From: Oscillospiraceae bacterium
GTDB taxonomy: Bacteria; Bacillota; Clostridia; Oscillospirales; Oscillospiraceae
Assembly: GCA_902787755.1 (NCBI GenBank)
Contig: CADAHL010000004.1
Location: forward strand, 33,348 to 97,347
Direction of reading: 5' to 3'
DNA length: 64,000 bases
Part shown: in pieces, positions 4,832 through 39,263 of the stretch
How the letters are laid out: each line of letters begins with the position of its first letter
Numbering within the stretch: the stretch's first letter is position 1
Translations under genes and position numbers: made by a program
Notes under the pieces: generated by a model
The model's database searches: none
The model's input: the letters and a program-made list of their open reading frames with translations, nothing else
Told to the model about the DNA's origin: nothing

Positions 4832-5422
4832 GTGATCGACTTGAAAAAACATCTGTTTCTCACCGGCCCCGACCGCTGGGTGCTTTCCGAACTGATCCGC
4901 AGCGAGCTGGGCGACCGGCTCAGCGAGGCCGGAGGCTACATGAGTCTCCGACAGCGGGACGAGCGGGGCGAGGTATCCGCCCTGGCGCTTCTGCCCGCCG
5001 CTGCCTTTGGCGGCGTTGAGGGCTTCGAGGCGGAGCGCTATTTGTTCCTCTCCTCCCCCGCCAGATCCGATAACGAGGTCATCCGTCAGACCGGGACCCG
5101 GCTGCTGCAGGAGGCGCTCTGGTATCCCTACGCCGTGCTGGACTCCGTCGGCGGCTTCGAGTTGGTGATCCCCCAGTTCCGGGAGGCCCTGACGGAGCTT
5201 CTCAACGGCGGCAAGCCCCTTCTGGGCGTTCTCCTCTCCCCGGGAGAGGCGGAGGCCCAGCGCCGTCTGCTGCGCCTGGGGTCCCGGGAATCCCTGAACA
5301 CCCAGCAGCTTCACCGGGCCCTCCGGGCCGATCCGGATACGGAGATCCTGGACTTCGGCGGTTTGGGCGCGCTCACCTCCAAAGGGAAGCTGCGCCGCTG
5401 GATCGGAGAATACCTGCCATGA
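4832..5422 (+). CDS. THEP1-family (NTPase_1-like) protein with degenerate P-loop
   Basis: About 196 residues. The layout follows the small nucleoside-triphosphatases of the THEP1/NTPase_1 family: an N-terminal beta strand KKHLFLTG, a central strand LDSVGGFEL where the family has the Walker B DE-x-GP-x-EL, then FREALTELLNGGKPLLGVLL. The Walker A motif (G-x4-GK-S/T) is missing: the loop after FLTG reads PDRWVLS, with no lysine, and the Walker B acid pair is also lost. It is therefore probably a pseudoenzyme. Start choice is uncertain: GTG at 4832 or TTG at 4841, both within about 12 bases of the predicted transcript start. The stop overlaps the sfsA ATG (ATGA), so the two are coupled. Family assignment is by pattern only. 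Confidence 0.55.
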   Translation: MIDLKKHLFLTGPDRWVLSELIRSELGDRLSEAGGYMSLRQRDERGEVSALALLPAAAFGGVEGFEAERYLFLSSPARSDNEVIRQTGTRLLQEALWYPYAVLDSVGGFELVIPQFREALTELLNGGKPLLGVLLSPGEAEAQRRLLRLGSRESLNTQQLHRALRADPDTEILDFGGLGALTSKGKLRRWIGEYLP

Positions 5423-6102
5423 TCTACGAACGGATCTCCCCCGCCGTCTTTCTCTCCCGGCCCAATCGCTTCATCGCCAGGGTGCTGCTGGAAGGACAGG
5501 AGACGGTGGTCCACGTCAAAAACACCGGACGCTGCCGGGAGCTGCTGCTGCCCGGGACCACAGTCTATGTGCAGGACAACCGCCGCCCGGATCGGAAGAC
5601 CGCCTACGATCTGATCGCCGTACAGAAGGGAGAGCGCCTGATCAACATGGACGCCAACGCTCCCAACGCCGTCTTCGGCGAATGGCTGCGCGCCGGCGGG
5701 CCGGGCTTCGTCCCGGATCTGGTCCGTCCGGAAACCGTCCACGGCGACTCCCGCTTCGATTTCTACTACGAGTACCGCCTCCGCCGCTGCTTTGTCGAGG
5801 TCAAGGGCGTGACCCTGGAGGAGAACGGCGTGGTCCGCTTTCCCGACGCGCCTACCGAACGGGGTGTCAAGCACCTGCGCGGCCTGATCCGCTGCGTTCG
5901 GGAGGGATATGACGCCGCCGCTGTTTTTGTGATCCAGACGAAGGACGTGTCCTGCTTTGAGCCCAACCGCCGGACCCATCCGGCCTTTGCCGACGCGCTG
6001 GCCGAGGCATCTGAGGCCGGCGTCCGTCTGCTGGCCCTGGACTGTCAGGTGACGCCGGACTCGCTGTGCATTGCCGATCCGGTGCCGATCCATCTGGTCT
6101 GA
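5419..6102 (+). CDS. sfsA: SfsA family DNA-binding / nuclease-like protein
   Basis: A 227-residue SfsA homologue. The conserved features are visible: the N-terminal OB-like part with FLSRPNRFIARV and HVKNTGRCREL, and the C-terminal PD-(D/E)xK-like core with RFDFYYEY and the CFVEVKGVTLEENG stretch (near residue 130), followed by RFPDAPTERGVKHL. SfsA was described as a DNA-binding regulator of sugar fermentation genes in E. coli; its role in Firmicutes is not established. The ATG overlaps the stop of the preceding THEP1-like gene. Confidence 0.93.
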   Translation: MIYERISPAVFLSRPNRFIARVLLEGQETVVHVKNTGRCRELLLPGTTVYVQDNRRPDRKTAYDLIAVQKGERLINMDANAPNAVFGEWLRAGGPGFVPDLVRPETVHGDSRFDFYYEYRLRRCFVEVKGVTLEENGVVRFPDAPTERGVKHLRGLIRCVREGYDAAAVFVIQTKDVSCFEPNRRTHPAFADALAEASEAGVRLLALDCQVTPDSLCIADPVPIHLV

Positions 6103-26182: not shown

Positions 26183-27187
26183 TTACTCGCTTCTCAACTT
26201 CATGTATTCGATGTTCTCCGTAATATCCCGGATGATCCCGGAATCCACGAAAGCCACCGCCTGCCGGATGGCCGCAAAAAAGCTGGAGGCGTTGGAGGAG
26301 CCATGGGCCTTGATGACCGGCTTGCTGATGCCCACCAGGGCTGTGCCGCCCACCTCGTTTACGTCCATGGACTTCTTCATGGCGGCCAGGTCTTTCTTCA
26401 GGACCAGAGCGGCCAGCTTGTTCATGGTATTGGCATAGAACACGCCCTTGAGGGCCTTCATCATGTACTTGATCACACCCTCCGTGCCCTTGAGCAGCAC
26501 GTTGCCGGTGAAGCCGTCGGTGACCACCACATCCGCCTCGCCGGAGAACACGCCGGTGCCCTCCACGTTGCCGATGAAATGGATCCGTCCCTCTTCATCC
26601 GCCTGCTTCAGCAGCGCGTAGGCCTGGTGCTGAAGCTCGCCGCCCTTGGTCTCCTCGGTGCCCACGTTCAGCAGACCGACCCGGGGATTGTCGCAGCCCA
26701 TGAGCTTTTTTGCGTAAAAGCTGCCCATATAGGCAAACTGCAGCAGATATTCCGCGGTGCACTCCACGTTGGCGCCGCAGTCGATAAGCATGACCCCATG
26801 CTCGCCCGCGGGCAGGACCGGAGCCATGGCGGCCCGGCGGATCCCCCGGATGCGCTTGACGGTAAGGGTCGCTCCCGTGAGCAGAGCGCCGGTGCTGCCG
26901 GCGGAGACCACCGCGTCGCCCCGGCCTTCCTTCAAAAGCTCCAGAGCCACAGCCATGGAAGAATCCTTCTTACGTCTGGTTGCGGTACTGGGATCGTCTT
27001 CCATTGTGATCACTTCCCTGGCGTCCACGATCTCCACCCCTTTGGGATCTTCGACCAGAGGCTCCACGTCCTCTTTCCGTCCCACCAGGATCAGTTCCAC
27101 CCCCAGCTCGTCCCGGGCGCGCAGGGCGCCTCTTACGATCTCCTGAGGGGCGTTGTCGCCGCCCATGGCGTCAATGATGATCTTCAA
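26183..27187 (-). CDS. plsX: Phosphate acyltransferase PlsX
   Basis: A 334-residue enzyme that converts acyl-ACP and phosphate to acyl-phosphate, the first step of phospholipid synthesis in most Gram-positive bacteria. It opens with the typical IIIDAMGGDNAP and contains GSTGALLTGA and VVTDGFTGNVLLKG. It acts at the membrane surface with PlsY. The gene overlaps the end of trmFO by 17 bases and is followed directly by rnc. The fab genes and acpP that often separate plsX from rnc are absent here. Confidence 0.96.
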   Translation of the reverse strand: MKIIIDAMGGDNAPQEIVRGALRARDELGVELILVGRKEDVEPLVEDPKGVEIVDAREVITMEDDPSTATRRKKDSSMAVALELLKEGRGDAVVSAGSTGALLTGATLTVKRIRGIRRAAMAPVLPAGEHGVMLIDCGANVECTAEYLLQFAYMGSFYAKKLMGCDNPRVGLLNVGTEETKGGELQHQAYALLKQADEEGRIHFIGNVEGTGVFSGEADVVVTDGFTGNVLLKGTEGVIKYMMKALKGVFYANTMNKLAALVLKKDLAAMKKSMDVNEVGGTALVGISKPVIKAHGSSNASSFFAAIRQAVAFVDSGIIRDITENIEYMKLRSE

Positions 27188-28496
27188 TGTGAAAAACCTC
27201 CTTCTCCCGCAAGGCGTCCAGGATCTCCAGCGAACGGCGGGAGATCTCGGCGTTTTTATTTCTCTTCCCCTTGACCCGATAGCCCAGGGGGCTGATGATA
27301 CCGAAGTTGATGTTCATGGGATCAAAGCGGCCCACGCTGCCGCCGGATATGTACAGGCCCAGAGCGCCGATGGCCGTCTCCTGGGGAAAGTCCACCGCCG
27401 GAAGGCCCAGAACCTCCGCCGCTGTCTCCACACCCACCAGCAGCCCGGAGGCCGCGGACTCCACATAGCCCTCCACGCCGGTCATCTGTCCGGCAAAGCG
27501 GATCCTGGGCTGGGAGCGCAGGCGGTAATAGCGGTCCAGCAGCTGGGGGCTGTTCAGATAGGTGTTGCGGTGCATGACGCCGTAGCGCACGAACTCCGCG
27601 TTCTTCAGCGCCGGGATCATGGAAAAGACCCGCCGCTGCTCGCCCCAGGTCAGGTGGGTCTGGAAGCCCACCAGATTGTACAGGGTGCCGTCGGCATTGT
27701 CCTTGCGCAGCTGCACCACCGCCCAGCTCTCTTCCCCGGTCCGGGGATCCCGCAGGCCCACCGGCTTCAGCGGGCCGTAGCGCAGGGTATCCACGCCCCG
27801 GCGGGCCATGACCTCCACAGGCATGCAGCCCTCAAAGACTCCGGCGTCGTCAAAGCCGTGGACCGGGGCCTCCTTGGCGGAGGCCAGCTCGGTCACAAAG
27901 GCCAGATACTCGTCCTTCGTCATAGGGCAGTTTACATAATCCGCCGTTCCCTTGTCGTAACGGGAGGCGAAGTAGGCCGATTCCATATCCACGCTCTCCA
28001 GGGTCACGATCGGGGCCACGGCGTCGTAAAAATGCAGGTCGCTGTCCGGGCAGAGCTCCGCGATCCTCTCGGCAATGGCGTCGCTGCTCAGAGGGCCGGT
28101 GGCCACGACCACAGTCCCCTCCGGGATCTCGGTCGCCTCTTCCCGGAGAATCTCAATGTTGGGATGCTCCTCCAGGGCCCGGGTGATGCTCCGGGCAAAG
28201 CCCTCCCGGTCCACGGCCAGGGCTCCGCCTGCTGGGACCCGATTTTCGTCGGCGGCGCGCATGATCAGCGAATCCAGCCGCCGCATCTCCTCCTTGAGAA
28301 GCCCCACGGCGTTGCTGAGCTCGTCGCTGCGCAGGGAGTTGGAGCAGACCAATTCCCCGAACCAGGGGGATTTATGGGCGGGCGTCATCTTTTCCGGCTT
28401 CATCTCCACCAGACGAACCCGGATCCCCCGCCGGGCCAGCTGCCAGGCGCATTCGCTGCCGGCCAGACCGGCGCCCAATACGGTCACAGTCTCCAT
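27171..28496 (-). CDS. trmFO: Methylenetetrahydrofolate--tRNA-(uracil-5-)-methyltransferase
   Basis: A 441-residue flavoprotein that makes ribothymidine at position 54 of tRNA using methylene-folate and FAD. The N-terminus carries the dinucleotide-binding motif VLGAGLAGSECAWQLARRG, followed by the TrmFO-specific stretch FGELVCSNSLRSD. C-terminal blocks GGSVGRFDPMNINFG and LGYRVKGKRNKN are typical. It lies three bases after topA, the common topA-trmFO order in Firmicutes. Confidence 0.96.
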   Translation of the reverse strand: METVTVLGAGLAGSECAWQLARRGIRVRLVEMKPEKMTPAHKSPWFGELVCSNSLRSDELSNAVGLLKEEMRRLDSLIMRAADENRVPAGGALAVDREGFARSITRALEEHPNIEILREEATEIPEGTVVVATGPLSSDAIAERIAELCPDSDLHFYDAVAPIVTLESVDMESAYFASRYDKGTADYVNCPMTKDEYLAFVTELASAKEAPVHGFDDAGVFEGCMPVEVMARRGVDTLRYGPLKPVGLRDPRTGEESWAVVQLRKDNADGTLYNLVGFQTHLTWGEQRRVFSMIPALKNAEFVRYGVMHRNTYLNSPQLLDRYYRLRSQPRIRFAGQMTGVEGYVESAASGLLVGVETAAEVLGLPAVDFPQETAIGALGLYISGGSVGRFDPMNINFGIISPLGYRVKGKRNKNAEISRRSLEILDALREKEVFHIEDHH

Positions 28497-28499
28497 GGC

Positions 28500-30812
28500 T
28501 TATTCCTTCGTCTCCGCCTTTTTCGTCCGGGTCCTGCCGGTCGAGGCGGACTTGGCGGTCTTCGCGCTCTTCGACGTGGTCTTTGCGGCGGTCTTCTTCG
28601 CCGTGCCGGTCTTGGCGGCCTTGGTGCTTCCCGAGCTGCGGGCGGTCTTCTTCCCGGTATCGGCAGAGGCCGCTGTGTCTTCCCCGTCAGCCTGGGCCGC
28701 GGGTTTTCTCTTGTATCCCCGTTTGTCCTCGGGAACGAAGTTTGCGCACTCCGGATTCACGCAGAAGGGCTTGGGCGCACCCCGGCCGGATTTCTTAAAC
28801 ATGGTCTTGCCGCAGGCCGGACAAAAGTCCTTGGTGGGCACGTCCCAGGTGATAAACCCGCAGTCGGTTCCCCGCTCGCAGGCATAGAACACATAGCCCT
28901 TCTTGGAGGTGCGCTTCAGGATCCGGCTGCCGCACTTGGGGCATTTACCCGGCATCTCCACCACGATGGGCTTGGTGAAGGTGCACTCCGGGAAGCCGGA
29001 GCAGGCCAGGAACTGGCCAAACTTGCCCTTCTTCACCACCAGCTGGCGTCCGCAGACCTCGCAGTATTCATCGCTGAGCACGTCGGGGACCTTGATGCGC
29101 ACCCCGTCCAGCTCGCTTTCGGCCTGCTCCAGTTCCTTGGAAAAGCCGCCGTAGAACTCGCTCAGGACCTGCTGCCAGGGGGTCTTCCCCTGCTCGATCC
29201 CGTCCAGCTCGCTCTCCATATGGTTGGTGAACTTCAGGTCCACGATATCCGCAAAATGTTCCCGCATCAGCTGGGTCACCACCTCGCCCAGAGGCGTGGG
29301 CTTCAGATAGCGCCCCTCCTTGACCACATAGTCGTGGGCCGTGATGGTGGTGATGGTGGGGGCGTAAGTGGAGGGACGGCCGATGCCCTTCTCCTCCATG
29401 GCCCGGATGAGCGTCGCCTCGGTATAGCGGGCGGGAGGCTGGGTAAACTGCTGATCCGGCTGCATCTTGGTCAGCTCGAGCCGCTCGCCCTCATGCAGGG
29501 ACGGCAGCGGGTTGGACAGCTCGCTGCTCTCCTCATCCCGGGCCTCCTCATAGACCGCGGTATAGCCGGGGAATTTCAGCTCCGAGTAGTTGGCCCGGAA
29601 ATTATAGCCCGCGGACTCCACCTCCACAGCCACGTTGTCATAGACGGCGTTGGCCATCTGGCAGGCGGTAAAGCGGCCCCAGATCAGCCGGTACAGGCGG
29701 TACTGCTCCTGGGTCAGATCCTTGCGCACCCGCTCGGGCGACAGGGTCACGTCTGTGGGACGAATGGCCTCGTGGGCGTCCTGGGCGCCAGCCTTGGTCT
29801 TGAAGCGCCGGGGCTGGCCGGGATAATACTCCGGGCCGTAGTGGCCGACGATGTAGTCCCTGGCCGCGGCCAGCGCCTCGTCGGACAGACGCAGGGAGTC
29901 GGTACGCATATAGGTGATGAGGCCGATGGTCCCCTGACCGCTGATCTCCACGCCCTCATAGAGCTGCTGGGCGATGGACATGGTGCGCCGGGGCGTCATG
30001 GAAAGGCGGCGGGAGGCCTCCTGCTGCAGGGTGGAGGTGATGAACGGAGGCGCGGGGCTGCGCTGCTTCTCTCCCCGTTTCACGGAGGAGACGGTGAAGG
30101 GCGCTTCCTTCGTGGCCTCGATGACCCGATCCACGTCCTCCCGGCTCTTGAGCTCCTGCTTTTTGTCGCCCCGGCCATAGAACCGGGCGGTAAAGCTGCC
30201 GCCGTCGTCCCGGGACAGGAAGGCGTCCAGGAGCCAATACTCCTCCTTGACGAAATTCCGGATCTCCTCCTCTCGGTCCACCACCATCCGGGTAGCTACC
30301 GACTGGACCCGGCCCGCGGACAGGCCCCGCTTCACCTTGCGCCAAAGCAGAGGCGACAGGGTATAGCCCACGATCCGGTCCAGCACCCGGCGGGCCTGCT
30401 GGGCGTCCACCAGGTCCTGATCAATGTCCCGGGGCTTCCGAATGCTCTCGGTGACCACACGCTTGGTGATCTCATTGAAGGTCACCCGGCGGGCCTTTTC
30501 GTCCGGCAGCTCCAGCAGCTCCTTCAGGTGCCAGGAGATCGCCTCGCCCTCGCGGTCAGGGTCCGTGGCCAGATAGACGGTCCCGGCGCTCTTGGCGTCC
30601 TTCTTCAGCTGGTTGATGAGCTCGGACTTGTCCCGGACAGGGATATACTCCGGCTGAAAGCCGTGCTCTATATCTACACCCAGACGGCTCTTGGGCAGAT
30701 CCCGCAGGTGGCCCATAGACGCCGTGACCTTATAATCTCCCCCCAGATAGCGCTCGATGGTCTTGGCTTTTGCCGGGGACTCCACGATCACCAGGTCTTT
30801 CCGTTTTGCCAT
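28500..30812 (-). CDS. topA: DNA topoisomerase I
   Basis: A 770-residue type IA topoisomerase that relaxes negative supercoils. The TOPRIM part begins LVIVESPAKAKTIERYLG and has the acidic DPDREGE (84-90). The catalytic tyrosine is Tyr301 in GLITYMRTDS. Three C4 zinc-ribbon-like repeats follow (CEVCGRQL, CPKCGSRIL, CPACGKTM). After them comes an extended Lys/Ala/Thr-rich tail of about 70 residues, which is expected to bind DNA without a fold. It sits between dprA and trmFO. Confidence 0.97.
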   Translation of the reverse strand: MAKRKDLVIVESPAKAKTIERYLGGDYKVTASMGHLRDLPKSRLGVDIEHGFQPEYIPVRDKSELINQLKKDAKSAGTVYLATDPDREGEAISWHLKELLELPDEKARRVTFNEITKRVVTESIRKPRDIDQDLVDAQQARRVLDRIVGYTLSPLLWRKVKRGLSAGRVQSVATRMVVDREEEIRNFVKEEYWLLDAFLSRDDGGSFTARFYGRGDKKQELKSREDVDRVIEATKEAPFTVSSVKRGEKQRSPAPPFITSTLQQEASRRLSMTPRRTMSIAQQLYEGVEISGQGTIGLITYMRTDSLRLSDEALAAARDYIVGHYGPEYYPGQPRRFKTKAGAQDAHEAIRPTDVTLSPERVRKDLTQEQYRLYRLIWGRFTACQMANAVYDNVAVEVESAGYNFRANYSELKFPGYTAVYEEARDEESSELSNPLPSLHEGERLELTKMQPDQQFTQPPARYTEATLIRAMEEKGIGRPSTYAPTITTITAHDYVVKEGRYLKPTPLGEVVTQLMREHFADIVDLKFTNHMESELDGIEQGKTPWQQVLSEFYGGFSKELEQAESELDGVRIKVPDVLSDEYCEVCGRQLVVKKGKFGQFLACSGFPECTFTKPIVVEMPGKCPKCGSRILKRTSKKGYVFYACERGTDCGFITWDVPTKDFCPACGKTMFKKSGRGAPKPFCVNPECANFVPEDKRGYKRKPAAQADGEDTAASADTGKKTARSSGSTKAAKTGTAKKTAAKTTSKSAKTAKSASTGRTRTKKAETKE

Positions 30813-30821
30813 TGTTGTTCC

Positions 30822-32033
30822 TCACTTCAATTTAATATTCAGCACGATGCGCATGCCGGGCTCCCGTCGGATATAGCCCTTGATCTGCAGTACGGTCAGT
30901 TGGGCCAGAACCGTGGCGGTAGACAGCCCGGTGGCTTCGATGATATCGTCGATATGGGTGGCGTTCTTCTCGACCGCCGTAAGGATCTTCAGCTGATCCT
31001 CGCTGAGAACGGCCAGCTGATCCCGAAGATTTTTGGCCGCCTCCGGCTTCGGATCGGGCTCCGCAGCGGGAGCCGACACAGGCTGCGCCTTCCCGGCGGC
31101 TTTTTCGAGCTCCGGGGCCTCTCCGGGCAGCTCCGGCGGCTGCAGATCCGCAGACACCCGCTTCATTCTGCCCGGATACAGGGCTTCAAATTCGCTCATC
31201 ACGTCCCAGCCGCAGGTGGCCAGGGCCGCTCCGTCCCGAATGAGCGACAGGGTCCCGGCGCTGTTTTCCGCGTCGGCGTTGCCGGGGACGGCGAAGATCT
31301 CCTTCCCCTGCTCCAGCGCCTCCTCGGCAAAGAGCAGCGCGCCGCTTTTTGCCGGCGCTTCGACCACCACCACGCCCACGCTGAGCCCTGCGGCGATTCG
31401 GTTCCGCTCCCGGAAATGATGCCTCTGGGAAGGGGTTCCCGGCGCATACTCGCTGATGAGCACGCCTCCGGTGGTCACCACATCCCGGGCCAGGGAGCTG
31501 TTTTCCCGGTCGATCTCGGTCCCCAGGACCGCCAGCACGGTGCCGTCGGCCTGGAGAGCGCCCCGGGCCGCCATGGCGTCGATGCCCTGGGTCAGGCCGG
31601 AAAGGATAAGTCCTCCGCTCCGGGCGATCTGATAGGACAGGGTCCTGGCCATCTTGAGCCCATAGGGGCTGGCCCGGCGGGTACCGATCACCGCGATCGC
31701 CGGTTCAGAATCCAGAGAGGGCAGATTTCCTCTGAGATACAGCACCGCAGGCGGGGAGCTGATCTGCCGCAGTCGGGAGGGATAGGCGCTGTCACGATAG
31801 GTGACGATACGCAGATCCTGCTCCTGACAGGACCGCAGCGCCTGATAGGCCCGGTCCAGGTCCCGTCTCTCCAGCAGGCTTCGATCTCTCTGACTGAGAT
31901 TCAGCCCGTCAAAGGCCTCTCTCGGCGCGTGAAAAATCTCCTCCGCGTCGCCGAAGCAGTCCAACAGCTGGGCCTGGGCCGATATACCGAAGCCCGCGGT
32001 AGACAGCCAAAGCCAGTATTCCAGGTCCGCCAC
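30822..32033 (-). CDS. dprA: DNA processing protein DprA
   Basis: A 403-residue DprA/Smf protein that loads RecA on incoming single-stranded DNA. It has an N-terminal SAM-like region, the Rossmann-like core with AVIGTRRASPYG, SGLTQGIDAMAARGAL and the family stretch HHFRERNRIAAGLS, a linker of about 50 Pro/Glu/Ala residues, and a C-terminal winged helix (DDIIEATGLSTATVLAQLTVL). DprA is widespread in bacteria that are not known to be transformable, so competence is not implied. It is in an operon with topA. Confidence 0.95.
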   Translation of the reverse strand: MADLEYWLWLSTAGFGISAQAQLLDCFGDAEEIFHAPREAFDGLNLSQRDRSLLERRDLDRAYQALRSCQEQDLRIVTYRDSAYPSRLRQISSPPAVLYLRGNLPSLDSEPAIAVIGTRRASPYGLKMARTLSYQIARSGGLILSGLTQGIDAMAARGALQADGTVLAVLGTEIDRENSSLARDVVTTGGVLISEYAPGTPSQRHHFRERNRIAAGLSVGVVVVEAPAKSGALLFAEEALEQGKEIFAVPGNADAENSAGTLSLIRDGAALATCGWDVMSEFEALYPGRMKRVSADLQPPELPGEAPELEKAAGKAQPVSAPAAEPDPKPEAAKNLRDQLAVLSEDQLKILTAVEKNATHIDDIIEATGLSTATVLAQLTVLQIKGYIRREPGMRIVLNIKLK

Positions 32034-32054
32034 AGCCCCTCGCCCCCTCTGTTT

Positions 32055-32801
32055 TTATCTCGCCATCTCCCACATCAGCACGGAAGCCGCCACCGCCGCG
32101 TTCAGCGATTCGCTCTCCGGCTGCATGGGAATGATCACACACTGTCTGCACAGTTCCAGCAGCTCCGGGCTCAGGCCATGGCCCTCGCTGCCCACGGCCA
32201 CAGCCGCGTGTTTCAGATCCAGCGTCCGCAGATCCGCCGCGTTCTGGTGCAGGGCCGCGCCGTACAGGGGCAGTCTCTGATCCCGCAGGAAGTCCGGCAG
32301 GGCCTCCCGCCGCAGCCCGAGAACCGTCTGGCGGAAGATTGCGCCCATGGTGGAGCGTACGGTCTTGGGATGATACAGATCCGCACAGTCCTCCAGCAGG
32401 ATCACGGCGCCGATGCCGAACGCATTGGCGGTGCGGATCACCGTCCCCACGTTCCCCGGGTCCTGAACGCCCTCCAGGATCAGGGCGTTTTTCAGCTTAC
32501 CCGGCTTGGTGCAGCCCCGGATGGCCACGGTAAACACCGGGCCGGGACTGTTTTTCATGGGGCTGACGTAGTCGAACAGCTCTGCGGGCAAAACATACTG
32601 CTCCGCGCCGGGAAGGTCCCGGTCTTCCGGCCGCTCCTTCCAGGCAACGCGCAGGATCTTTGCTCCCGAGGCCAGCGCTTCGTCCAGCATTTTCAGGCCG
32701 TCGCAAAGGTATTCCCCGGAAAGGCGCCTGGCTTCGCTGTCGGAGGACAGCTCCCGAAAGTGCCGGATCATAGGATTTTTCCTGGATGTGATCGTCTCCA
32801 A
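32055..32801 (-). CDS. TrmH/SpoU-family RNA 2'-O-methyltransferase
   Basis: About 248 residues. The SpoU signature is present as LILEGVQDPGNVGTVIRTA (near residue 105) with the knot motifs VAVGSEGHGLSP and IPMQPESESLNAAVAASVL. An N-terminal substrate-binding domain (RKNPMIRHFRELSS) is typical of the rRNA methyltransferases TsnR/RlmB. The target nucleotide cannot be named. No ATG is available; I choose the TTG at 32801 because GGAAGGAG lies 11 bases upstream; a GTG at 32813 would touch the ribosome binding site. It is the first gene of the 13-gene operon. Confidence 0.88.
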   Translation of the reverse strand: METITSRKNPMIRHFRELSSDSEARRLSGEYLCDGLKMLDEALASGAKILRVAWKERPEDRDLPGAEQYVLPAELFDYVSPMKNSPGPVFTVAIRGCTKPGKLKNALILEGVQDPGNVGTVIRTANAFGIGAVILLEDCADLYHPKTVRSTMGAIFRQTVLGLRREALPDFLRDQRLPLYGAALHQNAADLRTLDLKHAAVAVGSEGHGLSPELLELCRQCVIIPMQPESESLNAAVAASVLMWEMAR

Positions 32802-32837
32802 ACGCTCAGACACTCCTTCCCACAGTAATACAGCGTA

Positions 32838-32969: not shown

Positions 32970-34145
32970 TTACATGACCTGCTCGGCCAGGACGGAGGGT
33001 TCCACCGCCTCCTGGATGGGAAGCTGGCTGAAGGCAGAGGGCTCCGGCATGGGCAGGGACTGCATATAGGCGTGCATGGCTTCGGCCACGCGCTTGCCGT
33101 TGGCCACCGCCTCCACCACGGTCCGTGCGCCGTGGGCCGCGTCTCCGGCGGCGAACACACCGGGCCGGGAGGTCCGGCCGTCCTCATCCGCCACCAGCAG
33201 CCCGGAGGGCTTGGTGCCGATATCGGCGGTGCCGCTGACGATGCTGCCTCCCAGCTCCTGACTGACGGCCACGATGACGCCGGTGCAGGGATAGCGCTTC
33301 TCGGAGCCGGGTACGGGGCGCAGCTTGCCTTCCTCATCGAACTCGCTGTCGGCGAAGACCACGCTGTCCTCCAGGATCTCCACCGGCACCTTCATCATCT
33401 CGAAGGTCACACCCTCCAGCTTGGCATAGCTGGACTCATACTGGCTTGCAGCGATCTTGTCCCGACGGTTGAACACCGTCACATACCGGGCCCCCTGGCG
33501 GATCGCCGTGCGGGCGCAGTCCATGGCGGAGTTGCCGGAGCCGATGACGATGACCCGCTCGCCCAGGCGGAAGGCCTCTGGACAGGCCAGGTAGTTGATG
33601 GCGAAGGCCACATGGCCCAGGCTCTCGCCCTTGATGTGCAGGCTGCGGGGCTTCCACAGGCCGGCGCCCACGAACACGCTCTGGTAGCCGTCCCGGAACA
33701 TATCGTCGATGGTAATGGAGCCGCCGATGGTGGTGTTGGAGATCACGAAGCGCAGCTCGGGATTTCTGGCGCAGTCCAGCAGCTTCTCCCAGTCCCGTTT
33801 GGGATCCAGGCAGCGGGAAGCGGCGGAGATGGCCCGGGTGTGCTCCACGGGCTGACCGTTCTCCCGGCCCAGGAGGATCAGGGTGTAGAGACCGTCCTGC
33901 TCCGAGAAGCGGTCCGCGGCCTCGGGATGACCGCCCCGGGGCTGGACCAGAACGACCTTGGCGTTGAAGCCGGCCTTCTCGTTCATCAAGTCGATGAAAT
34001 TGTCCGCAAAAGCCCGGAGGAAACTGCCCTCGCCGAACTGCACGATCTTCTCCGGCGCGTCCTTGAGCAGATAGCCCTTGTAGCCCAGCTTTTCCAGCGT
34101 CTCAAACGATAATCTTTCCTTAGTGAAAACCTCTTCAGATCTCAA
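32970..34145 (-). pseudogene. Chimera: N-terminal third of tagaturonate reductase UxaB fused to C-terminal half of a GltD-like oxidoreductase
   Basis: A continuous 391-codon frame with two unrelated halves. Residues 1-~138 match UxaB (altronate oxidoreductase): VQFGEGSFLRAFADNF, SEQDGLYTLILLG, and NPELRFVISNTT. From residue ~137 on it matches the second half of GltD/NfnA-type flavoproteins: IGGSITIDDMFRDGYQSVF, GESLGHVAFAINYL, the nucleotide site VIVIGSGNSAMDCA, and the FAD-closing GVFAAGDAAHGARTV. The UxaB catalytic and substrate domain is missing, and so are the Fe-S domain and first FAD half of GltD. Both enzymes should be dead. The switch occurs at an Asn-Thr-Thr word (AACACCACC, 33729-33737) that plausibly existed in both parents. 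The only N-terminal start is a TTG overlapping the end of uxaC, where uxaB belongs. Confidence 0.8.
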
Positions 34146-35568
34146 AATAACGCTCTGCGTTCTTGAAGCATACGCCCTCTACGATACGCCGCAGCGCTTT
34201 CTCGTCGTTGGGATACTCCCCGTTCTCCACCCAGTTGCCCACCAGGTTGCAGAAGATACGGCGGAAGTAGTCGTGCCGGGCATAGCTGAGGAAGGAGCGG
34301 GAGTCGGTGAGCATGCCCACGAAGTTGCCCAGCAGGCCCAGGTTGGCCAGGGACTTCATCTGGGCTTCCATGCCGGACTTGGTGTCGTTGAACCACCAGG
34401 CGGAGCCGTGCTGGATCTTGCCCGGCACCTCATCGGACTGGAAGCAGCCGATCAGGGTGCCCAGCTGCTCGTTGTCGGCGGGGTTCAGGGAATAGAGAAT
34501 GGTCTTGGGGCACTCGCCGGTCTCATCCAGCGCGGACAGCAGGGCCGCGATATCGCCGCCGCAGGTGTTCTGGGCGATCATGTCGAAGCCGGTGTCGGGG
34601 CCCAGAAGACGGTACATCCGGGTGTTCATGTTTCTCAGGCAGGAGTAGTGCAGCTGCATGGCGATGCCCAGACGATGGTACGCCCGGCCCAGATGCAGCA
34701 GAACGGCGGTCTGGTATTTCTCCGCCTCTTCCACGCTCACGCTCTCGCCCGCCATGGCCTTGCGGAAGGCAGCCTCCACCTCTTCCTCCGGAGCCGGACG
34801 GAAGGGGATGTAATCCAGGCCGTGATCGCTGGCCCGGCAGCCCATGGCCTTGAAGAACTCCAGGCGCTCCGTCAGGGCGTCCATGACCTCACGGGCGCTC
34901 TCCAGCTTCTCCTTGCCCACGCTCCCGGCCAGCTTGCCGACGTATTCCACAAAGCCGGGCTTGGAGATATTGATGGCCTTGTCCGGGCGGAAGGAGGGGC
35001 AGACCTTGACCTTGATGCTGGGATCCTCGGCGATCTTCTTGTGCCACTCCAGGGAGTCGATGGGGTCGTCGGTGGTGCCGATCATGGCGACTCTGGCCTT
35101 CTCGATAATGCCCCGCACGGTCAGGTTTGGATCGTTCTGCAGCTTGTCGTTGCAGAAATTCCAGGCCTCCTCGGCATTCTCCAGGGTCAGGGGCTTATCG
35201 TAGCCGAAGAACTGGCGCAGCTCCAGGTTGCACCAGTGATACATGGGGTTGCCAATGGCCATCTGCAGAGCCTCCACGAACTTCAGGAAGCGCTCATAGG
35301 CGGGCTTGTCTCCGGTGACATACTCCTCCGGCACGCCGTTGGAGCGCATCACGCGCCACTTGTAATGGTCGCCGAAGTAGCTGCCGTCCGGATTCTGGCC
35401 GCCCAGCCAGACCTCTACCAGGTTGTTGAAGCGGCGGTTTTCATAGATTTCCCGGGGAGAGATGTGGCAGTGGTAGTCCACCAGGGGCTGCTCCTCGGCG
35501 TAGTCGTGGAACAGGTGGCGGGCGGTCTCCGTCTCCAGGATAAAATCGCGGTCCATAAATGCTCTCAT
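34135..35568 (-). CDS. uxaC: Glucuronate (uronate) isomerase
   Basis: A 477-residue enzyme that isomerises D-glucuronate to D-fructuronate and D-galacturonate to D-tagaturonate in the cytoplasm. Typical blocks are PLVDYHCHISPREIYEN (metal-binding His pair), MIGTTDDPIDSLEWH, RASDHGLDY and the C-terminal GMLTDSRSFLSYARHDYFRRI. Length matches the family (~470). It lies after the two KDG kinase genes and before the uxaB-derived chimera, whose start it overlaps, so uxaB was its original partner for the next reduction step. Confidence 0.96.
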   Translation of the reverse strand: MRAFMDRDFILETETARHLFHDYAEEQPLVDYHCHISPREIYENRRFNNLVEVWLGGQNPDGSYFGDHYKWRVMRSNGVPEEYVTGDKPAYERFLKFVEALQMAIGNPMYHWCNLELRQFFGYDKPLTLENAEEAWNFCNDKLQNDPNLTVRGIIEKARVAMIGTTDDPIDSLEWHKKIAEDPSIKVKVCPSFRPDKAINISKPGFVEYVGKLAGSVGKEKLESAREVMDALTERLEFFKAMGCRASDHGLDYIPFRPAPEEEVEAAFRKAMAGESVSVEEAEKYQTAVLLHLGRAYHRLGIAMQLHYSCLRNMNTRMYRLLGPDTGFDMIAQNTCGGDIAALLSALDETGECPKTILYSLNPADNEQLGTLIGCFQSDEVPGKIQHGSAWWFNDTKSGMEAQMKSLANLGLLGNFVGMLTDSRSFLSYARHDYFRRIFCNLVGNWVENGEYPNDEKALRRIVEGVCFKNAERYFEI

Positions 35569-35630: not shown

Positions 35631-36716
35631 TTAGCGCTTGATGTCGTAGTCCATATTCATCAGCGCGCGGATGCTCTTGGCATCGTCGGTGATGTTGGCG
35701 TCGCCGTGGATGGTGTGCTTGAGTACGCTGCTGGCCACGGCGAAATTGACCATCTCCATGGGCTTGTAGCCGTTCATCATGGCGTAGATCAGGCCGCTGG
35801 CAAAGGCGTCGCCTCCACCCACCCGGTCCAGAATATTGAAGGTGAAGAGCTTGCTTTCGAAGGTGTGTCCCTGATACCACATATAGGCCATCAGGCTGTT
35901 CTCGCTGCCGGAGTGGGCATAGCGCACGTGGCGGGCGATGCACTTGAGGTTGGGCCAGCGCTCCACGAAAGCCTGGAAGATCTCGTCCTGCTGCTCATAG
36001 CTGGGCTGCAGAGGCACGCCGTCCTTCCAATCGCCCTTGCTGTGGTCGTTCTCGTCCCGCCAGAGGTGATAGGGCTCAATGCCGAAGAGCACGTCCACGT
36101 AGGGCAGACACTGGGTGCAGAAGTCCCTGGCCTCCTCCCAGGTCCAGAGCCGGGAGCGGAAGTTGCCGTCAAAGCTCACGGTCAGGCCCAGGGCCTTGGC
36201 CTGCTTCAGGCAGGCAAGGATGAAATCGGCGCAGCTTGGGGACAGAGCCGGGGTGATGCCGCTCAGATGCAGCCAGTCAAACCCGGACAGGAGCTTTTCC
36301 AGATCCACCTTGGAGAAATCGTACTCCGTGATGGCGCTGTGCTTCCGGTCATAGGTCACCTTGCTGGGTCGGATCCCGTAGCCGGTCTCCAGGTAGTAGC
36401 TGCCCAGGCGGTGGGTGGGGGTCTCCTCCGGGGTGGAGAGGATCACCGGCGTGCAGTGCACGTCGTTGCTGCGCAGCATGCGCACAGCGCTCTTGCCCAG
36501 AGAATTGTTGGGCACCACGCTGAAGAAGGTGCTGTCCACGCCAAGGTTGGCCAGGGCCAGGGCGATGTTGGCCTCGCTGCCGCCGTAGCTGGCCTCGAAG
36601 CTGGTGGCTACCCGGATCTTCTCATAGTTGGGCGGGGTCAGCCGGAGCATGATCTCGCCGAAGGTGATGAATTTCTGAGGGCTTTCGCCGCTCAGCAGCG
36701 GATTATGGTGTTCCAT
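35631..36716 (-). CDS. kdgK: 2-keto-3-deoxygluconate kinase (PfkB family), copy 2
   Basis: A 361-residue PfkB-family sugar kinase. The N-terminal signature is seen as YGGSEANIALALANLG and the C-terminal active site as DRVGGGDAFASGLIYAM, with the catalytic Asp in GGGDAF. It is longer than E. coli KdgK (~310) because of an insert around residues 215-250. In this operon the substrate is most likely 2-keto-3-deoxygluconate, phosphorylated to KDPG for cleavage by Eda. It starts one base after the end of a second PfkB gene, with which it shares the layout; one of the two may act on another keto-sugar. Confidence 0.8.
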   Translation of the reverse strand: MEHHNPLLSGESPQKFITFGEIMLRLTPPNYEKIRVATSFEASYGGSEANIALALANLGVDSTFFSVVPNNSLGKSAVRMLRSNDVHCTPVILSTPEETPTHRLGSYYLETGYGIRPSKVTYDRKHSAITEYDFSKVDLEKLLSGFDWLHLSGITPALSPSCADFILACLKQAKALGLTVSFDGNFRSRLWTWEEARDFCTQCLPYVDVLFGIEPYHLWRDENDHSKGDWKDGVPLQPSYEQQDEIFQAFVERWPNLKCIARHVRYAHSGSENSLMAYMWYQGHTFESKLFTFNILDRVGGGDAFASGLIYAMMNGYKPMEMVNFAVASSVLKHTIHGDANITDDAKSIRALMNMDYDIKR

Positions 36717-36717
36717 A

Positions 36718-37815
36718 TCAGCGCTTCACTCTGGCGCCGGCGCCGCCCATGATGGCCTCGACCTCACCCACGGAAGCCATGGAGGTGTCGCCGGGGGTGG
36801 TCATCGCCAGGGCGCCGTGGGCCGCGCCGTAGTTGACAGCCTTCAGCGCGTCGCCGGTGGTCATCAGACCGTAAACCAGACCGGAAGCGAAGGAGTCGCC
36901 GCCGCCAACACGGTCCATGATCTCCAGGCCGGGGTACTCCTTGGACTGGAAGATCTCGCCGTCGGCCCAGCAGATGGCCTTCCAGTCGTTGACGGTAGCG
37001 GTCTTCACGGTGCGCAGGGTGGTGGCCACCACCTTGAAGTTGGGATAGGTCTGGGCGGCCTTGCCGATCATCTTCTTGTAGCCCTCGATGTTCAGCTCCT
37101 TGAGGTTGGCGTCGTTGCCCTCGATCTCAAAGCCCAGGCAGGCGGTGAAATCCTCCTCGTTGCCGATCATCACGTCCACATACTTGGCGACCTCCCGGTT
37201 GACCTCCCGAGCCTTCTCCAGACCGCCGATGGCGCTCCACATGGAGGGGCGGTAGTTCAGGTCGTAGGACACCAGGGTGCCGTACTTCTTGGCGGCCTTG
37301 CAGGCGGCGATGACAGTCTGGCAGCTCTGCTCGCTCAGGGCGGCGTAGATGCCCCCGGTGTGCAGCCAGCGCACGCCCAGAGTACCGAAGATGTAGTCAA
37401 AATCGAAGTCCTCGGGGGTAGCCTGGGAAATGGCGGTGTTGGCCCGGTCGGAGCAGCCCACAGCGCCGCGGATGCCGAAGCCCCGCTCGGTGAAGTTGAT
37501 GCCGTTGCGGCAGATCCGGCCGATGCCGTCGGTCTTCTTCCAGAAGATCAGGTCGGTGCTGACGCCGCCCTGCTCGATGAAGTCCTTCATCAGCTTGCCC
37601 ACTTCGTTGTCGGCAAAGGCGGTAATGACAGCGGTCTTCATGCCGAAGCACTTGTGCAGGCCGCGGATGACGTTATACTCGCCGCCGCCCTCCCAGGCGC
37701 GGAAGGAGCGGGCGGTGCGGATACGGCCCTCGCCGGGATCCAGGCGCAGCATGACTTCGCCCAGGGATACGGCGTCAAACATGCATTCTTCTTTCGGACG
37801 CAGGTTCAGTTCCAT
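36718..37815 (-). CDS. 2-keto-3-deoxygluconate kinase (PfkB family), copy 1
   Basis: A 365-residue PfkB-family sugar kinase and divergent paralogue of the next gene. The first signature is WEGGGEYNVIRGLHKCFG and the second DRVGGGDSFASGLVYGLM. The N-terminal ten residues before MFDAVSLGEVMLRL may not belong to the fold; an internal ATG there is an alternative start. The gene follows eda by 13 bases, which favours 2-keto-3-deoxygluconate as substrate. Substitution of Ser-Glu-Ala-Asn by Gly-Glu-Tyr-Asn in the sugar-binding motif sets it apart from copy 2. Confidence 0.75.
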   Translation of the reverse strand: MELNLRPKEECMFDAVSLGEVMLRLDPGEGRIRTARSFRAWEGGGEYNVIRGLHKCFGMKTAVITAFADNEVGKLMKDFIEQGGVSTDLIFWKKTDGIGRICRNGINFTERGFGIRGAVGCSDRANTAISQATPEDFDFDYIFGTLGVRWLHTGGIYAALSEQSCQTVIAACKAAKKYGTLVSYDLNYRPSMWSAIGGLEKAREVNREVAKYVDVMIGNEEDFTACLGFEIEGNDANLKELNIEGYKKMIGKAAQTYPNFKVVATTLRTVKTATVNDWKAICWADGEIFQSKEYPGLEIMDRVGGGDSFASGLVYGLMTTGDALKAVNYGAAHGALAMTTPGDTSMASVGEVEAIMGGAGARVKR

Positions 37816-37828
37816 TTTTCTTTCCTCC

Positions 37829-38470
37829 TCAAGCTCTGGCTTCTTCCACGATCTCGCGGGACTTCTTGCACAGCTCGGTGATCTCGTCCCACTTCTGGTT
37901 GTCGATCAGGTCGGCGGTGACCATGTAGCTGCCGCCGCAGGCCGCGATCACCGGGCAGGAGATGTAATCCTTCAGGTTCTTCAGACCCACGCCGCCGGTG
38001 GGCATGACCTTGAACATGGGGAAGGGGGCGGACAGGGCTTTGATCTTGGCCAGGCCGCCGGACTGCTCGGCGGGGAAGAACTTGATGAGCTCCAGGCCGA
38101 ACTTCAGGGCCTGATGATACTCGGAGGCGGTGGTGCAGCCGGGGAAGATGGGGATCTTCTTCTCCTGGGCATAGGCCACCAGCTCGGGATCGAAGCCCGG
38201 GGTAACGATGAACTGACCGCCGGCCTCGATGACAGCGTCGATCTGCTCGGTCCGGGTGACGGTGCCGGCGCCCACGATCATCTCGGGGCAGGCTTCCTTC
38301 ATGAGCTTGATGGCCTTATCGGCCCCGGCAGCCCGGAAGGTGATCTCCGCCACAGGCACGCCGCCGGCGCACAGGGCCTTGCCCAGGTTGGCCGCGTCCC
38401 GCTCGGGGTGGTTGAGCTTGATGACCGGTACGACGCCGATCTTGGAGATGGCAGTATTCATTTCGTTCAT
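37829..38470 (-). CDS. eda: 2-keto-3-deoxy-6-phosphogluconate aldolase
   Basis: A 213-residue class I aldolase that splits KDPG into pyruvate and glyceraldehyde-3-phosphate. Conserved pieces are GGVPVAEITFR (catalytic Glu), VGAGTVTRTEQ, FIVTPGFDPELV, the Schiff-base lysine region LIKFFPAE, and MPTGGVGLKN for phosphate binding. The start ATG at 38470 follows TAAGGAGGACAACCCC; upstream in-frame codons overlap the end of the esterase gene. Short hexuronate-type KDPG aldolases of about 210 residues fit well. Confidence 0.93.
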   Translation of the reverse strand: MNEMNTAISKIGVVPVIKLNHPERDAANLGKALCAGGVPVAEITFRAAGADKAIKLMKEACPEMIVGAGTVTRTEQIDAVIEAGGQFIVTPGFDPELVAYAQEKKIPIFPGCTTASEYHQALKFGLELIKFFPAEQSGGLAKIKALSAPFPMFKVMPTGGVGLKNLKDYISCPVIAACGGSYMVTADLIDNQKWDEITELCKKSREIVEEARA

Positions 38471-38483
38471 GGGGTTGTCCTCC

Positions 38484-39263
38484 TTATGGAATGTATTCAA
38501 ATTGTTTGTTCAGCCAGTTTTCGCACAGGGGGATCCAGGCCGCGGCCTGGGGGTTGGGCGTCTCCACCTCCTGATTGCACATGGAGATGCCGTGAGCTCC
38601 GCCGGAAAACAGGTGACACTCGTAGTATACACCCGCTTTCTGCATCGCGGAAGCCAAAAATAGAGAATTTTCGACGGGAACGCTCTCGTCCCCCACGCAG
38701 TGCCAGAGGAAGGTGGGCGGCATCTGATCGGTGACCCGGTTCTCCAGGCTCAGAAACGCCCGCATCTCGGGGTCGCCGCCGGTGACGTTGTCAGCCGATT
38801 CCTGATGGGCAAATTCGCCCATGGTGATCACCGGATAGCAGAGCACCAGCGCGTCCGGGCGGCAGTCCCGGCCCAGCTTCAGTTCCGGCAGATGCCAGAG
38901 CGTTCCCAGGCTGGCCGCCAGATGTCCGCCGGCGGAGAAGCCCAGCACCGCGATCTTCCCCGGGTCGATGTGCCACTCCTCCGCTCGCAGGCGCAGGATG
39001 CGCACGCACTCCGCCAGTTCCCGCAGGGGTCTCAGGCCGGACGCCCGGGCTTCGGTGGAGTATTCGATGAGGAAGGTCTGATAACCCAGCGCCGCCCAGT
39101 GCAGAGCCACCGGATCCTTCTCCCGGGGGGAGAGCCAGCGGTAGCAGCCGCCGGCGCAGATCACCAGGGCGGGGCGGGTCTTATGTGAGACGAGCCGGTC
39201 ATGGTCGTCGTGTAAATAACCTATGACCGGCGCGTCATGTGCCTGAAACGTACAGATATTCAT
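38484..39263 (-). CDS. Alpha/beta-hydrolase, acetyl esterase-like
   Basis: A 259-residue serine hydrolase. The nucleophile elbow is GFSAGGH, the oxyanion-hole segment is VICAGGCYRWLSP (a variant of HGGG), and the catalytic His is in FSGGAHGISM with an acidic partner near CVGDESVPV. There is no signal peptide, so it works inside the cell. Such enzymes are often encoded in plant polysaccharide loci and remove acetyl groups from imported sugars or oligosaccharides. Its ATG abuts the kduD stop codon (TAAATG), so the genes are coupled. Confidence 0.8.
   Translation of the reverse strand: MNICTFQAHDAPVIGYLHDDHDRLVSHKTRPALVICAGGCYRWLSPREKDPVALHWAALGYQTFLIEYSTEARASGLRPLRELAECVRILRLRAEEWHIDPGKIAVLGFSAGGHLAASLGTLWHLPELKLGRDCRPDALVLCYPVITMGEFAHQESADNVTGGDPEMRAFLSLENRVTDQMPPTFLWHCVGDESVPVENSLFLASAMQKAGVYYECHLFSGGAHGISMCNQEVETPNPQAAAWIPLCENWLNKQFEYIP

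Follow-up and report, generated by a model that had tools for sequence, protein, structure and literature searches.

The question raised by this locus is how an open reading frame that is uninterrupted over its entire length can begin as one enzyme and end as another. The frame lies at 32970–34145 on the minus strand of the window (the whole 64,000-nucleotide stretch of DNA that was analysed) and contains no internal stop in 391 codons. A first-pass annotation had described it as a chimera of uxaB and a gltD-like gene, and this change of family within a single open frame was confirmed by both NCBIfam and Pfam. The tagaturonate reductase model NF002969 matched residues 27–142 of the chimera (2.6e-38), and the GltD-type model NF009410 matched residues 136–376 (3.7e-40). 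Pfam recovered positions 1–90 of 199 in Mannitol_dh, with Mannitol_dh_C absent, and positions 93–291 of 291 in Pyr_redox_2, with Fer4_20 absent.

The UxaB part (33729–34118, minus strand) is homologous to residues 7–139 of a 488-residue open frame at locus L014 (the numbering starts at the upstream stop, which lies 5 residues ahead of its Met) and comprises only the first portion of the Mannitol_dh Rossmann domain. The GltD-like part (32970–33737, minus strand) is homologous to residues 184–438 of a 441-residue open frame at the same locus, likewise counted from the upstream stop; it retains the normal gene end and lacks Fer4_20 and the first, FAD-binding portion of Pyr_redox_2. While the chimera resembles UxaB in matching the start of NF002969, it differs in having no Mannitol_dh_C, a partial Rossmann domain and no native start codon, and its score of 131.9 bits falls below the cut-off of 359, compared to 603 for the intact L014 uxaB. 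Similarly, it resembles the GltD-type NADPH flavoproteins (NF009410, TIGR01316) in their C-terminal half, but not in the Fe-S domain or the first dinucleotide fold, so that of the Fe-S domain, FAD fold and NAD(P) fold expected of such a flavoprotein only the C-terminal half is present. (The intact gltD-like parent in L014 also scores below the curated cut-offs of both models.) Whole domains in each part, as would be expected of an evolved fusion, were not found, since the Pfam domains of both parents are truncated. The product, if made at all, should therefore be inactive. The frame is probably a pseudogene.

The origin of the two halves is apparent from the relatives, the closest named of which are assemblies labelled Oscillospiraceae, Ruminococcaceae, Clostridiales or Clostridia, several with titles referring to red deer, sheep, goat or cattle. 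There, the gene order is kdgA-kdgK1-kdgK2-uxaC-uxaB-uxaA-gltD-like, with the complete run present in L015 and L016. In an operon scan of 92 stretches, the window among them, uxaB, uxaA and the gltD-like gene were whole, separate, in this order and on the same strand at nine loci (L037, L039, L040, L041, L042, L044, L047, L048 and L049), counting only once those contigs that, judged by their length, recur under other identifiers, such as L014, L015 and L016. The uxaC gene precedes uxaB in eight of the nine; L039 begins at the start of its contig. Two further loci (L092 and L108) have uxaB and uxaA with no full gltD-like gene behind them. By a hand count among the matches listed, 13 of 102 same-genus genomes have both halves as separate, linked hits on one contig, 3.2–3.5 kb apart. 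Compared to the relatives, the window lacks 3.1–3.4 kb, made up of the 3′ portion of uxaB, the entire uxaA gene and the 5′ portion of the gltD-like gene. The comparison of the locus in relatives that had been proposed thus supports a deletion, but not one between direct neighbours, as first suggested, because uxaA sits between the parent genes in the nine relatives. The UxaA protein carries the SAF, GD_AH_second and GD_AH_C domains of the UxaA/GarD type; its only NCBIfam match, to galactarate dehydratase, was below the cut-off, and the name altronate dehydratase rests on the operon context.

The join itself falls at a word common to both parents. In blastn alignments with genome G032, the window tracks uxaB through CCAACACCACC (33729–33739, minus strand) and the gltD-like gene from this word onward, so that 11 positions are covered twice. 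With G017 and G027 the overlap falls on the same window positions, although in G017 the gltD-side word itself has diverged. The first-pass annotation had placed the junction at a shared Asn-Thr-Thr word; the word is indeed shared, but it is 11 bases long rather than 9. At the matching sites of the nine intact operons, 3095–3357 bases apart, the word occurs whole or in part and in the same codon phase. The shared length is 12 bases in L041, 11 in L044, L047 and L048, 10 in L049, 9 in L039, 8 in L040, and 4 in L037 and L042, so that four of the nine have at least 11 bases at both sites and five do not have the full word. At the protein level, SNTT is found at the uxaB site in all 11 genes inspected and NTT(I/V)GG at the gltD-like site in all 10, and it is because these are read in the same phase that a join at the word falls in frame. 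By a hand estimate, a random break with such an overlap would be rare (≈12 × 4^-11). However, uxaB and the gltD-like gene have from 0 to 7 words of at least 11 bases in common per operon (counting the junction word where present), and since such words are not rare, the word alone proves little. Still, the word is present once at the join, whereas in the intact operons it lies, whole or in part, at both ends of the segment that the window lacks, in agreement with the microhomology deletion originally proposed.

A separate lesion was found near the start of the frame. In all ten relatives compared, uxaB begins with ATG shortly after a purine-rich stretch, which reads AGAGG in several. The corresponding position in the window (34119–34121, minus strand) has no start codon. 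AGAGG is retained within GAAGAGG (34130–34136, minus strand), occupying the same place as in several relatives, and this stretch may have served in ribosome binding. A TTG at 34145, 8 codons upstream of the ATG site of the relatives and overlapping the end of uxaC, could start the chimeric frame. The loss of the uxaB ATG favours debris over an evolved fusion.

We considered the possibility of an evolved gene fusion conserved in relatives, which the first-pass annotation had named as the finding that would overturn its reading. A query of 82 residues across the join, run against 102 same-genus genomes, had matches in 97 of them and spanned the join in the organism's own genome only; none of the 101 other genomes gave a spanning match. 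In 59 other genomes, no match covering both parts was found among the matches listed. Nor was the fusion present in any of 79 loci from named genomes, which were taken from the best 80 of 240, a set that may omit the closest neighbours of the own genome. The alignments of L106 and L109 do cross residue 138, at 51–52% identity, yet their gltD-like genes are full-length. No conserved fusion was therefore found in the genomes and loci searched.

Substitution patterns gave some indication of the age of the damage. Pairwise dN/dS between the window and relatives was 0.07–0.26 for the uxaB part (0.05–0.41 among the relatives themselves) and 0.09–0.25 for the gltD part (0.05–0.36), while uxaC gave 0.11–0.19. 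At otherwise invariant sites, the window had private residues at 3 of 84 positions in its uxaB half (relatives, 0–3), at 3 of 168 in its gltD half (0–6) and at 5 of 315 in uxaC (0–15). (The uxaB count was 5 of 86 as printed; E131I and A132G were dropped because they lie past the join.) There was thus no clear sign of relaxed selection in the pairwise dN/dS of either half. However, the uxaB part had a dN/dS of 0.11–0.13 against L039, L040, L041 and L092, compared to 0.05–0.09 among these four, which speaks against a clean absence of relaxation. The lack of a clear relaxation in substitution rates points to damage of probably recent date; that the chimeric frame is still under selection seems less likely.

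The upstream part of the operon is present in the window. Ahead of the chimera, all on the minus strand, are an intact uxaC, encoding uronate isomerase (34135–35568; above the cut-off of the equivalog model NF002794), two kdgK-like sugar kinases of the PfkB type (kdgK2, 35631–36716, and kdgK1, 36718–37815) and kdgA/eda, encoding KDPG aldolase (37829–38500; above the TIGR01182 cut-off). The adjacent kinases (35631–37815) are ≈30% alike, and both are also found in L015, L016, L122, L123 and L128.

The first-pass annotation had held that tagaturonate reduction would be broken unless another uxaB existed, and that the genome should be searched for intact homologues of uxaB and gltD. The own assembly is a draft (2.54 Mb, 86 contigs, 92.33% complete, 0.74% contaminated). 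In it, this search found no other intact uxaB, only the piece in the chimera and a relative at 27% identity, and no second copy of the gltD-like gene, only paralogues at 42% or less. No uxaA gene was found in the assembly either, although the same query protein had a counterpart in 9 of 37 genomes. The missing DNA, as represented by L041, matched the own genome only in short pieces at 67–87% identity (40 of 180 candidates scored), while it aligned with L037 at 81–84% along almost all of its length. An intact copy might nevertheless have escaped the 86-contig assembly. The own genome does have a mannonate dehydratase gene, uxuA (PF03786, 7.7e-146; above the TIGR00695 cut-off), adjoined on contig C7 by a uxuB-like reductase gene. 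The reductase has both mannitol-dehydrogenase domains and is nearest the fructuronate reductase model, but far under its cut-off (134.7 vs. 603 bits). The steps of uronate catabolism are assigned to a galacturonate and a glucuronate branch. Judging from gene content, tagaturonate reduction looks broken, as had been suggested; the galacturonate branch would be cut after UxaC and stop at tagaturonate, and the glucuronate route looks complete, with uxaC, the two kdgK-like kinases, kdgA and the uxuA–uxuB-like pair.

We consider it most likely that the frame is a recent chimeric pseudogene produced by deletion between short repeats, an ordinary and known kind of event. The ancestor would have had the operon kdgA-kdgK-kdgK-uxaC-uxaB-uxaA-gltD-like, from which ≈3.1–3.4 kb was presumably deleted between two direct 11-base copies of the word, located in uxaB and the gltD-like gene respectively, with loss of the remaining uxaB sequence, the entire uxaA gene and approximately the first 180 codons of the gltD-like gene, and a single copy was left at the join. 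While the loss is evident from the comparison with the relatives, we infer the presence of the full word in both genes of the direct ancestor and the step of slippage or short-repeat recombination. The join keeps the frame, since Asn-Thr-Thr is encoded at this point by both genes in a common phase. The start codon of uxaB is lost in addition. The predicted product attaches a partial UxaB Rossmann domain to a remnant of the GltD-like protein that lacks the Fe-S domain and the first dinucleotide fold. Glucuronate is probably still used through the uxuA–uxuB-like pair, with the participation of UxaC, the kinases and KdgA.

In PMC2884548, illegitimate recombination is considered the likely source of most of the small-scale diversity studied there, and its reference list includes work on deletion between short direct repeats. 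The present case is similar in that a segment appears to have been lost between short copies, one of which is left at the join, but differs in that two genes happen to be fused in frame and in that the mechanism is deduced from the outcome only. In the literature searched, uxaB pseudogenes led to a single paper, on the genus Ensifer. If real, the present locus would be a clean example of a short-repeat deletion cutting one uronate branch in a gut bacterium. It would also imply that automatic annotation may call such an in-frame chimera a real oxidoreductase, and that intact uxaC and kdgK alone are no proof of galacturonate use.

The most serious alternative, though an unlikely one, is an artefact of assembly or library construction, in which a chimeric read, a scaffolding merge or a mixture of strains produced the join in an organism that has the full operon. 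The assembly is a draft in 86 contigs and the fused form was seen in no other genome searched, as an artefact would predict. However, no other part of the assembly was found to contain the missing 3.2 kb, there is not a single N in 33001–34200, and a wrong join would not account for the second lesion, the loss of the uxaB ATG. Usual assembly k-mers are far longer than 11 bases, and a word so far below that size argues against an artefact. A near relative also has a gltD-like deletion of its own, with a 3-base overlap (in an unverified assembly), and the gene seems to be prone to deletion.

The fully open frame might also point to a working fusion, started at the TTG at 34145, that yields a small protein which binds NAD(P) and has taken on a new role. 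Its GltD-like part does keep VIGSGNSAMDCAR, which we take to be the second dinucleotide-binding stretch, and GDAA near the C-terminal end, the role of which we likewise assume, and the dN/dS is not clearly relaxed. Recent damage predicts the open frame and the dN/dS equally well, however, and with the fusion confined to one genome, the domains of both parents truncated and the native start codon gone, we regard this as very improbable. Hardly credible is the formation of the chimera elsewhere, followed by import with the operon by transfer: the downstream SpoU-methylase and dprA-like neighbours adjoin a gltD-like gene in none of the 91 other stretches (among matches listed at ≥38% identity), and the operon is a mosaic in which the affinity of kdgK2 differs from that of uxaC, uxaB and the gltD-like gene, but the upstream gene order is that of the relatives, and no donor chimera was found in the 101 other same-genus genomes or the 79 loci. 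Returning to the short-repeat deletion, it is improbable that its loss of the galacturonate-only UxaB and UxaA, with the steps shared with glucuronate kept, was favoured rather than tolerated, that it forms part of a repeated, genus-wide loss of the GltD-like gene, and that the remnant is expressed.

The mosaic is seen most clearly in kdgK2. The window copy is 94% identical to that of L016/L044 (dN 0.046), compared to 84–88% for L014, L015, L037, L040, L041 and L092 (dN 0.080–0.100 for L037, L040, L041 and L092), whereas uxaC, uxaB and the gltD-like gene of the window are nearer to the 84–88% group than to L016/L044. This suggests recombination inside the operon and a mixed history, which has no bearing on the join itself.

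Several observations concern the gltD-like gene in other genomes. In the near relative RUG13034 (L092, the same contig as L123), it is 1125 bases shorter than in L122 through an internal, in-frame deletion with a 3-base overlap (L123:8503–8690), with uxaC-uxaB-uxaA intact; the DNA upstream of the gene is 97% identical to that of L122, and the remnant 3′ piece 89%. In G103 (L125), the frame is broken by a short loss close to the beginning of the gene (minus strand, upstream of 6277), and in G017 (contig C27, L026, 4680–4696) a paralogue is frame-broken near residue 335. These three breaks look like separate events and, as read from unverified assemblies, suggest that the gene is dispensable. 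In L021, L022, L043, L045 and L069, the gltD-like gene directly follows uxaC, without uxaB and uxaA, and 21 of 38 loci (L037–L074) have it in the same stretch as a uronate-operon gene; the GltD-like flavoprotein, an orphan, thus tends to accompany uronate operons.

Two gaps between uxaA and the gltD-like gene also contain recurring DNA. A stretch of ≈110 bases in L041 (≈5330–5450) recurs at several sites of the own genome with 71–87% identity (C51, C4:22604, two in C6, C9 and C31) and is apparently a dispersed repeat, and in L122 the gap has an 82% stretch in common with the DNA behind kdgA. Finally, the plus strand of the window contains a 1891-codon open frame (27153–32828) antisense to topA-, dprA- and SpoU-methylase-like genes, which is probably a by-product of codon use.
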